This document shows positions 9 through 53,178 of a stretch of 64,000 bases of DNA, piece by piece (position 1 is the first letter of the stretch; each line of letters starts with the position of its first letter). The DNA comes from Halovenus rubra. GTDB lineage: Archaea > Halobacteriota > Halobacteria > Halobacteriales > Haloarculaceae. The stretch lies in assembly GCF_026586665.1 (NCBI RefSeq), contig NZ_JAODIY010000010.1, forward strand, positions 62,001 to 126,000, given 5' to 3'. The notes under the pieces were generated by a model. It worked only from the letters and a program-made list of their open reading frames with translations. It had not been told where the DNA came from and made no database searches. The position numbers and the translations under genes were made by a program.

Positions 9-1229
9 ATGGCCTCATCGCTGTGGCGACCACACCCCAGTAACGAGTCAATCGAGCTTTCTGCGTCGAAACAAACACGGTGTATGCTCGATTCGCTCGC
101 ACAACACGAAAAATCACTCGGACAACCTGTTCCCGAGTACAGCACCTCCGAGTTGCGAGAGCGTGCCCAGTCGTTTATTACACAGTGTTACACGGAACTG
201 GACAGGGAGTGGGCAATCGAATCACGGCTCGCCGATATCGACCGCGAGATATCGCTAACAGGGACGTACACCCACACAGAAAAAGAGTTGACACATGGGG
301 CACGGATGGCGTGGCGTAACAGCAACCGCTGTATCGGGCGACTGTTCTGGCAGTCCCTAGAGGTACGCGACGAGCGCAGCCTCAACACTCCCGAAGCGAT
401 ACATGAGGCCTGCTGTCGTCACATTGAACACGCCAGGAATGGCGGCGATATCCGTCCGATGATTACCGTCTTCAGGCCTGAGACACCACAGACCGGACGC
501 GTTCGTATCTGGAACTACCAACTATTGGGATACGCTGGCTATGAGACAGAGACGGGGGTTGTTGGCGACCCATCGGAGTGTGCGTTTACCAGCTACTGCC
601 AGTCACGAGGATGGGAGGGCGCTGGTGAGTCTTTCGACCCCCTGCCCCACGTCATTCAGGTCGGTGACAGCGAGCCAGCCCTGTTCGCGGTCCCCGATGA
701 GTTGTTCGACGAAATCGAGATAACACACCCGGAGTACGATTGGTTTGCCGAACTTGGACTCCGGTGGTATGACGTGCCAATCGTCTCGAACATGCGTCTC
801 GAAATTGGCGGTATCAGTTATACAGCTGCGCCGTTCAACGGGTGGTACATGGGTTCTGAACTTGGAGCCAGGAATTTCGCTGACGAGGACAGGTACGACA
901 AACTCCCAGAGGTTGGAGAGCGATTGGGATACGATACCACGAAGACACGCTCGCTCTGGAAAGACGAGGCATTGGTTGAACTTAACCGGGCCGTGTTACA
1001 CTCCTTCGAAAGCGCAGGGGTGAGAATCGTCGACCACCACACCGCAACCGAACAGTTTGCACAGTTCGAGCGAAACGAGGCAGCCACAGATCGGACTGTA
1101 ACTGGTGACCGAAGTTGGCTCCTACCACCCATGAGTTCCGCGACTACACATGTCTTCGACCAATCGTACGAGACAACGGTAGAGACGCCAAACTTCTTTT
1201 ATATGCCCGACTCACTCTCAGCGGAGTAG
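9..1229 (+). CDS. nos: Nitric oxide synthase oxygenase (bacterial-type NOS)
   Basis: Stand-alone haem oxygenase that would convert L-arginine to citrulline and NO with tetrahydropterin and an external reductase. The 406-residue product carries the NOS haem-ligand segment WRNSNRCIGR with the proximal Cys at 108, the substrate-binding segment APFNGWYMGSELGARN around 274-289 (Glu284 is the expected arginine-guanidinium ligand), and the pterin-side segment SWLLPPMSSATTHVF near 369-383. There is no reductase domain. It is somewhat longer than typical bacterial NOS (about 360), mainly at the N terminus. An in-frame stop lies just upstream (bases 3-5), so the start is bounded. Its electron donor is not adjacent; the 2Fe-2S ferredoxin at 30.7 kb is one unproven candidate. 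Family assignment is very secure; physiological role is inference. Confidence 0.95.
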   Translation: MASSLWRPHPSNESIELSASKQTRCMLDSLAQHEKSLGQPVPEYSTSELRERAQSFITQCYTELDREWAIESRLADIDREISLTGTYTHTEKELTHGARMAWRNSNRCIGRLFWQSLEVRDERSLNTPEAIHEACCRHIEHARNGGDIRPMITVFRPETPQTGRVRIWNYQLLGYAGYETETGVVGDPSECAFTSYCQSRGWEGAGESFDPLPHVIQVGDSEPALFAVPDELFDEIEITHPEYDWFAELGLRWYDVPIVSNMRLEIGGISYTAAPFNGWYMGSELGARNFADEDRYDKLPEVGERLGYDTTKTRSLWKDEALVELNRAVLHSFESAGVRIVDHHTATEQFAQFERNEAATDRTVTGDRSWLLPPMSSATTHVFDQSYETTVETPNFFYMPDSLSAE

Positions 1230-46074: not shown

Positions 46075-46431
46075 TCAAACAACCACGACACCGATCAAGG
46101 TACCAGCAACGACGGCCAACAGCGCGCCGACGAGGTTGATACCAGCATTCCACACCGCCAGCCGACGGTCGCCCGTCTCGAATAGCCGGACCGTCTCGAA
46201 CGCAAACGTCGAAAAGGTGGTGAACGCGCCACAGAACCCGACTGCGAAGACAAAAAAGACCGGGTGGGTCTCGGGGACTGCGAGCAAGGCCCCGAGCGTG
46301 AAACTCCCGAGGACGTTCACCGCGAGCGTGTCGCGCGTCCGGGTGTCGATACGTTCACCGAGCAGGTGGCGCATCCACGCACCGAGTATTCCACCGGTGC
46401 CGACGAGCAAGAACTCGATCACCGACTCCAC
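46075..46431 (-). CDS. crcB: Fluoride efflux channel subunit, CrcB/FluC
   Basis: A 118-residue four-helix protein of the FluC family, which forms dual-topology fluoride channels. It has the GTGGILGAWMRHLL opening, an NVLGSFTLGALLAV segment and the signature GFCGAFTTFSTFAFE with the conserved Phe and Thr residues. It overlaps the next crcB by 13 nt. Two adjacent genes usually mean a heterodimer with fixed opposite topologies. No fluoride riboswitch was recognised upstream. Confidence 0.93.
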   Translation of the reverse strand: MESVIEFLLVGTGGILGAWMRHLLGERIDTRTRDTLAVNVLGSFTLGALLAVPETHPVFFVFAVGFCGAFTTFSTFAFETVRLFETGDRRLAVWNAGINLVGALLAVVAGTLIGVVVV

Positions 46432-46787
46432 CTCACGGCGGCACGGCCAAGCAAAATAGCGGCGAATCCGAGCACGTAGTTTGCGACCACGTTTGCCGCG
46501 GCCAGTGCCGGAGACAGTGACACTGTTTCGGCCGCAAACGTGCTGTAGGTGGTAAACGACGAACAGAAGCCGGTGCCGACAAGCAACCGCGTCTCGGCGC
46601 TCAGTCGGTCAGCGAGGTGCTGGTCGTACAGCACCACACCGAGCAAGAACGTGCCGAAGACGTTTGCGGCGAGTGTACCCCACGGAAATGTCTCCGGAAG
46701 CCACACGGCCAGTGCGTAGCGTCCGCCCGCACCCACGAACCCGCCAACAGCAATCAGCGCAAACGCCGACGAGCGTGACGACGACAT
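46419..46787 (-). CDS. crcB: Fluoride efflux channel subunit, CrcB/FluC (second copy)
   Basis: A 122-residue CrcB homologue upstream of and overlapping the first. It has GGFVGAGGRYALAVWLPETFPWGTLAANVFGTF in its N-terminal half and GTGFCSSFTTYSTFAAE as the signature. The ATG at 46787 is preferred over one four codons upstream, being close to the hydrophobic start. The paired, overlapping arrangement indicates the two subunits assemble together to export fluoride. Confidence 0.93.
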   Translation of the reverse strand: MSSSRSSAFALIAVGGFVGAGGRYALAVWLPETFPWGTLAANVFGTFLLGVVLYDQHLADRLSAETRLLVGTGFCSSFTTYSTFAAETVSLSPALAAANVVANYVLGFAAILLGRAAVRWSR

Positions 46788-46932
46788 ACAGCGGGTCACG
46801 AGGGAGAGCTACTCCACACTTTCGAAAATCTGAGATTGTTTCAGTACTGGGGCGTCGGGGATAAAAACAGAAACTAAAGCTAGGTTGAAGTCAGCAACAG
46901 TTACATGACGGGATGGTGAACTAAGGGATAAC

Positions 46933-48006
46933 ATGCAAGTCGTCCTGATTGGTGTCGGCCAAGCCGGCGGAAAAGTAACGCAAGTGCTGGCTGAGTTTGA
47001 CCAGGAGATGGGATTTGATGCGGTGCAGGGCGCATTCGGTGTCAACACTGCGAAAGCAGACCTCCAGTCTCTCAGTATCGATACGATGCTCATCGGCCAA
47101 GACAGGGTGAAAGGTCATGGTGTCGGTGGTGATAACGAACTCGCCGCCGAGATTATGCAAGAAGAGTCAACGGAGGTGATGGACTCCCTCGACGGACGTA
47201 TCTCGACCGATGCCGAGGCGGTCGTCATCGTCGCTGGCCTCGGTGGCGGGACCGGCAGCGGCGGCGCACCTGCACTCGCGAAAGAACTCAACCGTGTCTA
47301 CGATGTTCCGATTTATGTGGTCGGTGTCCTCCCGGGTCGTGACGAAGGCTCGCTCTACCAGGCAAATGCAGGACGGTCGCTGAAGACAGTCGTCCGCGAA
47401 TCTGATGCTGCCTTGCTCATTGATAACGACGCTTGGCGGAGCAGTCAGGAAACCCTCGAAGAAGGGTTCGACCAGATTAACGACCAGATTGCCCAGCGTC
47501 TTGGCCTCCTGCTGGCCTCCGGCGAGGCCGTCGAGGGTGTCGGCGAGAGCGTCGTCGACTCCTCAGAGATTATGAACACGCTGCGTGGCGGTGGTATTGC
47601 CTCGCTTGGCTACGCCAGTGCCGAGGCGGCAGACGACCCCGGAGAGAACGTCAATACGATTACGAGCCTGACGCGAAAAGCGCTGCTAACGGGTATGAGC
47701 CTACCCAACGCAGTTGATGCTGAGGCTGCATTGCTTGTCGTCGCCGGCGACCCAGACTGCATCTCGCGGAAAGGCGTCGAACGCGCCCGCAAATGGCTCG
47801 AAGAGGAAACTGGCTCGTTGCAGGTCCGTGGCGGAGACTTCCCACTCGAAAGTGACCGTTTGGCAGCGCTGGTCGTCCTTGGTGGCGTTGAGCGGTCACA
47901 GCGCATCGAGGAGTTCATGGACCGCGCCCGTGAGGCACACGAGAACGCAGAAAGCCGCGACCCGGTCGAACAGTTCGAAAACGATGAACTCGACGACCTC
48001 TTTTAG
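46933..48006 (+). CDS. cetZ: CetZ tubulin/FtsZ-superfamily cytoskeletal protein
   Basis: A 357-residue tubulin-superfamily GTPase of the haloarchaeal CetZ group, which controls cell shape and motility in related species. The tubulin signature GGGTGSG is at 104-110, with GVGQAGGKV near 7-15 and the N-terminal N-terminal GTPase strands. The acidic C-terminal tail ends DPVEQFENDELDDLF. The stop codon overlaps that of the convergent phosphatase-superfamily gene by 4 nt. The paralogue class (CetZ1 or another) cannot be fixed without alignment. Confidence 0.92.
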   Translation: MQVVLIGVGQAGGKVTQVLAEFDQEMGFDAVQGAFGVNTAKADLQSLSIDTMLIGQDRVKGHGVGGDNELAAEIMQEESTEVMDSLDGRISTDAEAVVIVAGLGGGTGSGGAPALAKELNRVYDVPIYVVGVLPGRDEGSLYQANAGRSLKTVVRESDAALLIDNDAWRSSQETLEEGFDQINDQIAQRLGLLLASGEAVEGVGESVVDSSEIMNTLRGGGIASLGYASAEAADDPGENVNTITSLTRKALLTGMSLPNAVDAEAALLVVAGDPDCISRKGVERARKWLEEETGSLQVRGGDFPLESDRLAALVVLGGVERSQRIEEFMDRAREAHENAESRDPVEQFENDELDDLF

Positions 48007-49717: not shown

Positions 49718-50767
49718 ATGAAAACCGGGATTGCTCTGTTAAACTTCGGCGAACCGGCCGAGCCGGAACGAGACCGCGTCGTCGCGTATCTCGAACGCAT
49801 TTTCTACGCAAACGCGGACCTCGAAGAGGCTGACACCAAGGAGGAAGCAAAAGAGCGGGCGAGACAGCTCGCAAAGCGCCGTGCTCCCGGCCTGATCGAG
49901 GAGTACAAGGAGATTGGGGGCTCTCCGCTCAACGAGCAAGCTGGGACACAGGGCGACCTGCTTGAGTCGTCCCTTGCAGACCGTGGCTACGATGTGACCG
50001 CTTATAACGGCATGCAGTACACTGAACCGTTCATCGAGGACGCTGTCGAGGCCGCGCGCGACGACGGTATCGAGAAGCTGATTGGACTCCCAGTCTATCC
50101 CTTGTGTGGGCCGTCGACAAACGTTCTCGCGCTGGATGAACTCGAAGAGGCAGCCGAGAACATCGACTTCGATGTCGAGATTCAAGGAATTACTGGCTGG
50201 CACAAACACCCGACGTATAACCGCGTCCGTGCCGACGCAATCCGGTCAGTCGTCGATGAACACGGCCTCGACCTGAGTGACCCTGAAACCGCGTTCGTCT
50301 TCTCGGCACACGGTACCCCCGCCCACTATCTCGATGAGGGGAGTCGCTACGACATCTACGTCGAGGAGTTCTGTGAGACAGTCGCCTCGATGCTTGGAAT
50401 TGAGGAGTATCATCTGGGGTATCAGAACCACGGAAACCGGGATATTCCGTGGACGGAACCCGAAACCGAGGACCTCGTCGCTGAACTCGACCACGACCGA
50501 GTCGTCGTCGACCCCGTCAGCTTCCTCCATGAACAAAGCGAGACGCTGTCGGAACTCGACATCGAACTCGACGAGGATGCAATCGACGAGAACCAAGAGT
50601 TCTATCGTGTCCCGATTCCACATGACGACGCACGCCTAGGTGAACTGTTTGCAGACCTTGTCGAACCGTTCCTCGCCGATTTCGAGCCTGAATACTACCA
50701 GTACCGGCAGTGTCAGTGCCGGGACGAGCCAGGGACGATGTGTCTGAATGCACCCCGAAGTGACTGA
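49718..50767 (+). CDS. hemH: Ferrochelatase (HemH/CpfC) with [2Fe-2S]-type cysteines
   Basis: A 349-residue ferrochelatase that inserts Fe2+ into protoporphyrin IX or coproporphyrin III. The start MKTGIALLNFGEP and FSAHGTP with His198 are standard; HEQSETLSEL holds the conserved Glu275. It has Cys130 in PVYPLCGPST, at the position of the first cluster Cys of [2Fe-2S] ferrochelatases, and a C-terminal set Cys332, Cys334 and Cys342 (CQCRDEPGTMC). Together they suggest a cluster as in animal and actinobacterial enzymes. A GTG at 49646 would add 24 residues. The next gene, the matching oxidase, starts 19 nt after its stop. Confidence 0.92.
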   Translation: MKTGIALLNFGEPAEPERDRVVAYLERIFYANADLEEADTKEEAKERARQLAKRRAPGLIEEYKEIGGSPLNEQAGTQGDLLESSLADRGYDVTAYNGMQYTEPFIEDAVEAARDDGIEKLIGLPVYPLCGPSTNVLALDELEEAAENIDFDVEIQGITGWHKHPTYNRVRADAIRSVVDEHGLDLSDPETAFVFSAHGTPAHYLDEGSRYDIYVEEFCETVASMLGIEEYHLGYQNHGNRDIPWTEPETEDLVAELDHDRVVVDPVSFLHEQSETLSELDIELDEDAIDENQEFYRVPIPHDDARLGELFADLVEPFLADFEPEYYQYRQCQCRDEPGTMCLNAPRSD

Positions 50768-50786
50768 AGCGGTACCAGAAACGCCA

Positions 50787-52139
50787 ATGACAGAAACACA
50801 CCACACTGTCGGCATCATCGGCGGAGGCATCACCGGGCTAGCGCTCACACATTATCTCGCAGAGCAGGGTGTCGATAGCATCGTGCTAGAGGCCGCTGAC
50901 GAGCCGGGCGGTGTCATCTCGACAAAACAGGTTGACGGCCATATACTTGAAGCGGGGCCACAGCGAATGCGTAAGACGCCGGGTGTCGCCGAACTCGCAG
51001 ACGCCGCAGGCGTTGCGGATAGGTTCGTCGAGGCCAAACAAGAGGACCTCTACGTCTATGCAGACGGCGAACTCGGGCAGGCCCCGCTTTCAGTGTCAGC
51101 GTTTTTCAAAACGGACCTACTGTCGTGGCGGGGCAAAGCACGGATGGTCGCCGAACCGCTCACCGACAATGGCAGCCCCGAAGAACGTGCCGGTGAGTTG
51201 TTCGTGCGGAAGTTCGGCCAAGAGGCCTACGAAAAGTTCATCGGGCCACTGTATGGCGGTATATATGGCTCTGACCCGATGGAAATGCCGGCGGCGTTTG
51301 CGCTCGAAGGCTTGCTGGCGCAGGAACAAAAAGCGGGTAGCTTGCTCCAAGCGTTCCGAAAGCGGGTTGGCGGCGGCCACTCGGCTCCGCCGGTCACCTT
51401 CGAAGGGGGGAACCAGACACTGCCGGCCGCCCTCTGTGACACATATAGCGACCGTGTCCATCTCGACACGCCAGTGACTAGCATTGAACCGGTCGATGAC
51501 GGCCGTGTCGAGGCGAAAGACGGTTCCGGGCCGTATTACCTCGAAACGGCCAATGAGAGCTACGAGGTCGACCAAGCTGTTGTGACAACACCAGCAGACA
51601 TCGCAGGAGAGTTGTTGTCCGACCTCGGAGACGGCACTGATGAACTCGACAATCTGCGGTACAACCCTCTCGCGATGGTCTTTTTGGAAGCTGACCACGA
51701 CTGGGTCGGCAAGGGATACCAAGTAGGCTACGGCGAGGAGTTGCACACGTTAGGTGTCTCTTGGAACAGCCAGATGTTTGGCCGGGACGGCGTCCAGACT
51801 GTCTTCCTCGGTGGGATGCACGAGCCGGAACTGCTCCAAGCATCTGATGAGCGTCTCGGCGAGATAGCAACTCGTGAGTTCAAAGAGGCAGTTGGAACTG
51901 CAGCGTCAGTTATTACGGTCGAACGACTCGATGTTGGGTTCCCAGCGTGGGACAGCTCGTGGTGGCTGCTGGACGATATCGACCTCCCAACCGACGTGCA
52001 TATGGCGACAAACTACACCGCCCGGATGGGTATTCCAAGCCGTGTCCGCGAGGCACGTCAGCTCGCAGATGAGCTCGCAACGCTAGAGTACGGGACAGCA
52101 TCGGCAGAGACGACCGTCTCAACACCGGCCGACGACTGA
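50787..52139 (+). CDS. hemG: Protoporphyrinogen/coproporphyrinogen oxidase (HemG/HemY-type, FAD)
   Basis: A 450-residue flavoprotein with the FAD-binding motif GIIGGGITGLAL near 9-20, GGVISTKQVDGHILEAGPQ typical of the HemY-type oxidase and a C-terminal FAD segment. It oxidises the porphyrinogen just before metal insertion by the neighbouring ferrochelatase. The ATG at 50787 is used; an in-frame ATG at 50748 would overlap hemH by 20 nt. The two genes form an operon for the last steps of haem synthesis. Whether it works on protoporphyrinogen or coproporphyrinogen III is unknown. Confidence 0.9.
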   Translation: MTETHHTVGIIGGGITGLALTHYLAEQGVDSIVLEAADEPGGVISTKQVDGHILEAGPQRMRKTPGVAELADAAGVADRFVEAKQEDLYVYADGELGQAPLSVSAFFKTDLLSWRGKARMVAEPLTDNGSPEERAGELFVRKFGQEAYEKFIGPLYGGIYGSDPMEMPAAFALEGLLAQEQKAGSLLQAFRKRVGGGHSAPPVTFEGGNQTLPAALCDTYSDRVHLDTPVTSIEPVDDGRVEAKDGSGPYYLETANESYEVDQAVVTTPADIAGELLSDLGDGTDELDNLRYNPLAMVFLEADHDWVGKGYQVGYGEELHTLGVSWNSQMFGRDGVQTVFLGGMHEPELLQASDERLGEIATREFKEAVGTAASVITVERLDVGFPAWDSSWWLLDDIDLPTDVHMATNYTARMGIPSRVREARQLADELATLEYGTASAETTVSTPADD

Positions 52140-52239: not shown

Positions 52240-53178
52240 ATGAGTGACCGTCAGCGGCATGGAGAGCTAGACACGAAAGAGGGCACTGCCGACACAGTCG
52301 ACGGTGAGGCAGACGAGATACAGGATTCGCTCGCCGACCTGGAAGGAGCTGCACGGGATATCGCCGACCGAATTAACGAGATTCGAGACGGCTCCCAACA
52401 ACAGTACAACGACATTCAACAGGTTTCAAAGGAGATATCCAACCTCTCGGCGTCGGTCGAAGAGATCGCCTCTTCTTCCGAAGAAGTATCCTCAGCCGCC
52501 AGCGAGGCCCGTGACCTCGCACAGGAGGGCCAAGAGACGGCAACAGAAGTAAGCGAGTCGATGGGTGACGTGAACGAGGCAGCTGACGAGGTCGCCGAAA
52601 ACGTCCGGACAATCCAAGAGCAAGTCAACGAAATCGACGAAATTGTCGATGTTATCAACGATATTGCCGAGCAGACGAATATGCTGGCCTTGAACGCGTC
52701 TATCGAAGCGGCACGCGCTGGCGAGGCTGGCGAGGGGTTCGCCGTCGTCGCCGAGGAGGTGAAGTCGCTCGCCGAAGAATCACAGGACCAAGCCGGCCGC
52801 ATCGAGTCGATGATATCACAAATTCAAGAAGATACGGCGGTCGCCGTCGAGAGTCTCGACCGAAACAACGAGCGCGTTGAAGACGGCATCGAGTCGGTTG
52901 AGGAATCTGTCGAGATTCTCGAAGAGATTCACAGCGTCGTCGAAGAGGTATCTGACGGTATTGCGGAGGTGGCAACGGCGACCGACGAACAAGCCGCTTC
53001 AACCGAAGAGGTTGCGAGTATGGTCGACGCCTCGGTGACAAAAGCCGAAGAGATTGCCGACGAAACCGGCGCTGTCGCGGACGACGTTGTCAGACAAAGC
53101 GAGCGGATTAATGACATTGACCACCAGATCGAGATGCTCATCGCAGATGTCAAATCAGCCGAAAGCGCTGACGACTGA
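52240..53178 (+). CDS. Soluble methyl-accepting transducer lacking a sensor domain
   Basis: A 312-residue protein made almost entirely of a chemotaxis signalling coiled coil. The conserved hairpin tip reads DIAEQTNMLALNASIEAARAG near 142-162, followed by GEGFAVVAEEVKSLAEES. There is no transmembrane helix, HAMP, PAS or globin domain; only about 25 acidic residues precede the coil. Glu/Gln pairs in the flanking helices are possible methylation sites. It would act in the cytoplasm with CheA/CheW or with another sensor protein. It lies directly after the haem genes but on its own promoter. Confidence 0.9.
   Translation: MSDRQRHGELDTKEGTADTVDGEADEIQDSLADLEGAARDIADRINEIRDGSQQQYNDIQQVSKEISNLSASVEEIASSSEEVSSAASEARDLAQEGQETATEVSESMGDVNEAADEVAENVRTIQEQVNEIDEIVDVINDIAEQTNMLALNASIEAARAGEAGEGFAVVAEEVKSLAEESQDQAGRIESMISQIQEDTAVAVESLDRNNERVEDGIESVEESVEILEEIHSVVEEVSDGIAEVATATDEQAASTEEVASMVDASVTKAEEIADETGAVADDVVRQSERINDIDHQIEMLIADVKSAESADD

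Follow-up and report, generated by a model that had tools for sequence, protein, structure and literature searches.

The reason for the [2Fe-2S] cluster of certain ferrochelatases has been an open question since 1994. The hemH gene of Halovenus rubra, which lies in the 64,000 nucleotide stretch of DNA analysed here (the window), raises this question for the archaea, together with the questions of which porphyrin the enzyme uses and what a cluster would be good for. The main survey of ferrochelatase cluster motifs, as described in PMC8529089, excluded archaea. A search of the open-licence literature found no report on the cluster cysteines of archaeal ferrochelatases among the matches listed, most of which were judged by titles and the beginnings of abstracts. 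In the 59 archaeal genomes surveyed by Storbeck in 2010, hemE and hemH were recorded only for Picrophilus torridus and two Thermoplasma species (PMC3004389). A complete coproporphyrin route has since been stated for some Halobacteria (PMC11459464, citing Dailey 2017). This is the same route and the same class as considered below, but the passages of that paper on the route do not mention ferrochelatase cysteines or clusters.

The hemH frame is uninterrupted over 349 codons. The mechanical open reading frame begins upstream at GTG 49646, but relatives begin at ATG 49718, according to an alignment (A1) of 30 of 31 loci, which omits L127 (match length not a multiple of three) and includes L120 as a partial sequence. 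The product matches the Pfam ferrochelatase family PF00762 with an E-value of 7.3e-62 and 209.6 bits (cut-off 27), and passes the NCBIfam hemH equivalog TIGR00109 with 159.8 bits (cut-off 124.6). The assignment as a ferrochelatase in the preliminary description of this DNA is thus borne out. The closest named relatives, from Halovenus aranensis and H. salina, are 84% identical. The cysteines of the protein are residues 130, 219, 332, 334 and 342. Four of them had been listed previously and are all present; Cys219 had gone unmentioned. The relevant features, with counts for the 94 haloarchaeal ferrochelatases introduced below, are as follows.

49718..50767, plus strand: hemH, probably cpfC, encoding a 349-aa ferrochelatase with a C-terminal extension (about 320-349) that contains three cysteines
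50105..50107, plus strand: codon of Cys130 in the YPLCG loop, proposed fourth cluster ligand (Cys in 89/94, Ser in 5/94)
50309..50311, plus strand: codon of His198, which aligns to human His263 (His in 94/94)
50372..50374, plus strand: codon of Cys219, which is unlikely to be a ligand (Cys in just 47/94)
50540..50542, plus strand: codon of Glu275, which aligns to human Glu343 (Glu in 94/94)
50711..50713, plus strand: codon of Cys332, proposed cluster ligand (Cys in 94/94)
50717..50719, plus strand: codon of Cys334, proposed cluster ligand (Cys in 94/94)
50741..50743, plus strand: codon of Cys342, proposed cluster ligand (Cys in 94/94)

With PF00762 at E <= 0.001, hemH is found in 93 of 391 Halobacteria genomes and in 34 of 86 genera. 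Matches are also present in 8 of 14 control genomes, among which Haloferax volcanii is not one. The earlier remark that most archaea make haem from sirohaem agrees with the literature consulted, but hemH is no rarity in this class. For the study of conservation, 94 ferrochelatases were used, which cover every one of the 93 hemH genomes (one genome has two). The tail motif C-x-C-x7-C (C332-x-C334-x7-C342) is kept in all 94 sequences. At residue 130, Cys (89 sequences) is replaced by Ser in the remaining five. Exactly four cysteines are present in 36 of the 94 proteins. This arrangement of cysteines is beyond chance, and four conserved cysteines so arranged point strongly to a metal site. Cys219 was considered as the fourth ligand and ruled out, because only 47 of the 94 sequences have a cysteine there. 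A quick tree was built from the 94 haloarchaeal sequences, as the only archaeal ones, and six bacterial ones, several of them long-branched. A supported branch in it separates all haloarchaeal sequences from the bacterial ones. The Ser130 rows fall in two separate places, one of them amid six congeneric sequences with Cys130. The second hemH copy of the genome with two (L073, genome G371) has diverged; of its seven cysteines, one lies beyond the tail motif.

An AlphaFold2 model of the hemH product, calculated from a 31-row alignment, has a mean pLDDT of 89.8. According to DSSP, residues 330-331 and 340-342 of the model form short strands. The top fold match is human ferrochelatase (PDB 1HRK), with Z 37.7-37.8 and 2.1-2.2 Å over 327 residues. 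The model can be aligned through human residue 419, and so the archaeal protein has a C-terminal extension. Human His263 and Glu343, which we take to have catalytic roles, align to the invariant His198 and Glu275. At the position of human His341, every one of the 94 haloarchaeal sequences has Gln (Gln273), and catalysis may therefore differ in detail. Identity to the human enzyme is 27% across aligned residues, and the archaeal substrate is, in a further difference, probably coproporphyrin.

Both enzymes have an internal cysteine in the YP loop and three cysteines in the C-terminal extension. The ligands of the human cluster are, as we assume, residues 196, 403, 406 and 411. In the human chain, Cys196 is the Cys of YPQYSC, with the numbering offset checked by the H341C variant. 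An alternative placement of human Cys196 40 residues later (against Val170) was dropped, because the human chain puts it in YPQYSC. In the alignment, Cys130 is paired with human Tyr194, and human Cys196 with Pro132 of the query, so that Cys130 lies two columns before its human counterpart. The tails also differ in spacing, which is presumably C-x2-C-x4-C in the human enzyme, compared with the archaeal C-x-C-x7-C. The archaeal tail nevertheless satisfies the published motif of C-terminal [2Fe-2S] ferrochelatases, CX(1,11)CX(1,11)C (PMC8529089).

The comparison with actinobacterial-type enzymes leads to a similar picture. In a Nonomuraea sequence (L129) and in PDB 28wn, a coproporphyrin III ferrochelatase, the internal cysteine lies within the same loop, but aligns to Asn135 of the query, five columns past Cys130 and three past human Cys196. 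The tail of the Nonomuraea protein is also rich in cysteines, but with the spacing C-x3-C-C. For Mycobacterium, C158, C332, C339 and C341 are given as the ligands (PMC3205055). According to PMC8529089, the coproporphyrin route is the one used by actinobacteria. The likeness to animal and actinobacterial enzymes that had been suggested for this protein thus holds for the tail motif and the shared loop, whereas the column of the fourth cysteine differs from that in each of the two groups.

Firmicute and yeast enzymes mark the limits of what the extension can tell. The coproporphyrin ferrochelatase (CpfC) of Listeria monocytogenes is the best sequence match of solved structure in a profile search (E 2e-35), but firmicute structures align with the model only up to residue 321-327. 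The chains of both the Listeria and the Bacillus subtilis enzymes end where the archaeal extension begins, and the Listeria sequence is without a cysteine tail. Yeast ferrochelatase aligns with the model up to residue 338-340, and is described as an enzyme without a cluster in PMC9133952. As a cluster-free enzyme reaches this far, a cluster does not follow from the extension alone.

The family match, the conserved cysteines, the aligned His and Glu residues, and the set of haem genes and their joint occurrence described below are direct observations. From these sequence features, we infer that a [2Fe-2S] cluster is likely to be present in the archaeal ferrochelatase. The cluster would link the C-terminal extension with the Cys130 loop. 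It would most probably serve to hold the fold and to make a stable enzyme depend on the iron-sulfur supply, rather than to sense nitric oxide. Alternatively, the four cysteines could form a structural zinc site, with four Cys or with three Cys and a Ser as ligands, or a thiol redox switch, and the protein would then have no iron-sulfur cluster. The occurrence of Ser130 in five relatives and the similar extension on the cluster-free yeast enzyme fit this possibility, and sequence alone cannot separate a zinc site from a [2Fe-2S] site. We nevertheless consider it unlikely, because the best fold match is the human enzyme, whose [2Fe-2S] cluster is held by one internal cysteine and three C-terminal ones (PMC9133952). 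It has been stated for bacteria that removal of the cluster does not abolish activity (PMC8529089).

A regulatory role of the cluster has to be considered in view of another gene in the window.

9..1229, plus strand: nitric oxide synthase oxygenase (PF02898, E 2.3e-158), 48 kb from hemH

The presence of a nitric oxide synthase (NOS) in this genome had been pointed out before, and the PF02898 match confirms it. The cluster might then be a sensor of NO or iron, which stops haem synthesis while the cell's own NOS is active. The occurrence of both genes in the same 64-kb window would fit, and so would the inactivation of mammalian ferrochelatase by NO (PMC9133952). Moreover, hemH is present in 14 of the 23 NOS genomes, compared with 93 of the 391 Halobacteria genomes overall. 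The enrichment has p = 1e-4 when genomes are counted and 0.09 for genera, which were counted by hand, in both cases uncorrected for phylogeny. NOS is itself a haem protein, and a shared lifestyle or ancestry may account for the association. Several findings speak against a sensor. The two genes are 48 kb apart, and there is no evidence that the NOS oxygenase belongs with the haem genes. PMC8529089 describes microbial clusters as greatly exceeding the NO-sensitive clusters of mammals in stability. NOS is found in just 14 of the 93 hemH genomes, and the other 79 lack it, while the tail cysteines are kept in 94 of 94 sequences. The suggestion that the cluster ties haem synthesis to NO is therefore not upheld, and we regard an NO or iron sensor as very improbable.

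With respect to the substrate, the genes around hemH and elsewhere in the genome are informative. Upstream of hemH lies a phosphodiesterase-type gene on the opposite strand, and further out a tubulin gene. The other neighbours are listed in order of position.

46075-46799, minus strand: two tandem small membrane proteins, which in our estimate resemble a CrcB/Fluc fluoride channel pair
46933-48006, plus strand: CetZ-type tubulin homologue
50748..52139, plus strand: hemY-type flavin oxidase, probably the coproporphyrinogen oxidase CgoX (TIGR00562, PF01593)
52240-53178, plus strand: 312-aa protein encoded immediately 3' of the oxidase gene; its principal Pfam match is a methyl-accepting chemotaxis signalling domain

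The oxidase more likely starts at ATG 50787, 20 bases past the hemH stop. It matches PF01593, and also TIGR00562 with 150.6 bits (cut-off 97.85), a protoporphyrinogen oxidase model that does not tell CgoX and PgoX apart. A hemE gene is present on a different contig from hemH (TIGR01464, 353 bits, cut-off 303). A ChdC/PitA fusion is also encoded, with scores above cut-off for NF008913 (289 bits) and NF007124 (936 bits), including a model for peroxide-dependent haem synthases. HemE, a CgoX-type oxidase, the ferrochelatase and ChdC are thus all present in one genome, with four curated models above cut-off. AhbC (TIGR04546) and AhbD (TIGR04545) were not found at E <= 0.001 in this genome, which is 98.66% complete and consists of 48 contigs; at the same threshold, both models match 14 of 14 control genomes.

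The hemH product is, judged by its sequence and gene context, most likely a coproporphyrin ferrochelatase. With the oxidase adjoining, and with hemE and ChdC elsewhere in the genome, we infer that coproporphyrin is likely to be the substrate. HemE would make coproporphyrinogen III, which the product of the adjoining hemY/cgoX gene would oxidise. The ferrochelatase would then form coprohaem by insertion of Fe2+, and decarboxylation of coprohaem by ChdC (PitA) would yield haem b. The competing assignment is that of a protoporphyrin ferrochelatase (PpfC) of the classical haem route, with the adjoining oxidase as PgoX. The name of the best curated model of this oxidase, protoporphyrinogen oxidase, would agree with it, as would the annotation of relatives as hemG and ferrochelatase. 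What speaks against such an enzyme is the ChdC/PitA protein, which scores above cut-off, the aerobic use of ChdC by Haloferax volcanii (PMC8305020, citing PMC5746218), and the complete coproporphyrin route stated for some Halobacteria (PMC11459464). We therefore think that a PpfC is quite unlikely. Taken as a whole, it appears probable that the enzyme is a CpfC of the coproporphyrin route, with Cys130, Cys332, Cys334 and Cys342 very probably as the ligands of a [2Fe-2S] cluster.

The coupling of hemH to other haem genes can be followed across the class. The genomes that carry hemH (E <= 0.001) and those that carry hemE (E <= 1e-60) are the same 93 of 391, without exception, in 34 of 86 genera each. 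Both cut-offs were our own choice, and shared descent would inflate any probability calculated from this match. At E <= 0.001, the hemE model also picks up relatives of other function, for example in Haloferax volcanii. In 54 of 63 hemH loci with flanks of up to 5 kb (some of them shorter at contig ends), hemE is close to hemH. A hemY homologue, identified by BLAST, is near hemH in 44 of these 63 loci, and always on the hemH strand. In the other 19 (L043, L045, L052, L058, L061, L069, L083, L085, L095, L096 and nine more), no hemY homologue was found in flanks of up to 5 kb; hemE is nearby in 15 of these 19. The named examples are carried on plasmids and come from 15 haloarchaeal records. These include pHTUR01 of Haloterrigena turkmenica and a plasmid of Halorussus salilacus, and in both hemH, hemG and hemE are annotated as neighbours.

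Two enzymes of the sirohaem route, AhbD and AhbC, behave differently with respect to hemH. AhbD-grade matches (E < 1e-79, a limit of our own, as 0 of 391 genomes reached the 500-bit cut-off of the model) are present in 68 of 93 hemH genomes and in 194 of 298 others (p = 0.17). The idea that hemH carriers lack AhbD as a rule was rejected, since AhbD occurs in them at about the same frequency as in the other genomes. A stricter AhbD cut-off of 1e-100 was judged too strict, and its results were discarded. The overall count, 262 of 391 genomes, is in line with PMC8305020, where a share of two-thirds is stated. AhbC was sought in 39 of the 391 genomes, one per genus and picked by ourselves, 20 with hemH and 19 without. 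At a self-set threshold of at least 300 bits (0 of 39 reached the 650-bit cut-off of the model), it is present in 3 of the 20 hemH genomes and in 16 of the 19 others (p = 2e-5, uncorrected for phylogeny).

The scarcity of AhbC and the retention of AhbD in hemH carriers suggest, as a pattern of presence and absence, a hybrid haem pathway. If coprohaem is now made by CpfC, AhbC would be idle, and AhbD would stay as the oxygen-independent last step. On this basis, a wider scenario can be put forward, although only tentatively. About a quarter of the haloarchaea may have replaced much of the sirohaem route with a hemE-hemH coproporphyrin module, which some genera carry on megaplasmids; in most of these haloarchaea, AhbC would have disappeared and AhbD would have been retained. 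The coprohaem from a [2Fe-2S] ferrochelatase might then be converted by ChdC when oxygen is present, or by AhbD when it is absent, and the cluster might be indispensable to the enzyme. The coupling of hemE and hemH is also relevant, as is the rarity of AhbC, to a gap in Haloferax volcanii, which has ChdC without the enzymes to feed it: ChdC is present, but hemE, the oxidase and the ferrochelatase are reported as absent (PMC5746218).

The interest of this archaeal clade lies in its invariant cysteine tail, its shifted fourth cysteine, and a module that apparently takes the place of part of the sirohaem route. Among bacteria, the C-terminal motif has a scattered distribution, whereas the three tail cysteines are invariant across the 94 sequences of the clade. 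The natural Ser130 variants offer ready-made tests, and haloarchaea are genetically tractable. If the hybrid module exists as outlined, the cluster would be required in this archaeal clade, and not dispensable as it seems to be in bacteria.
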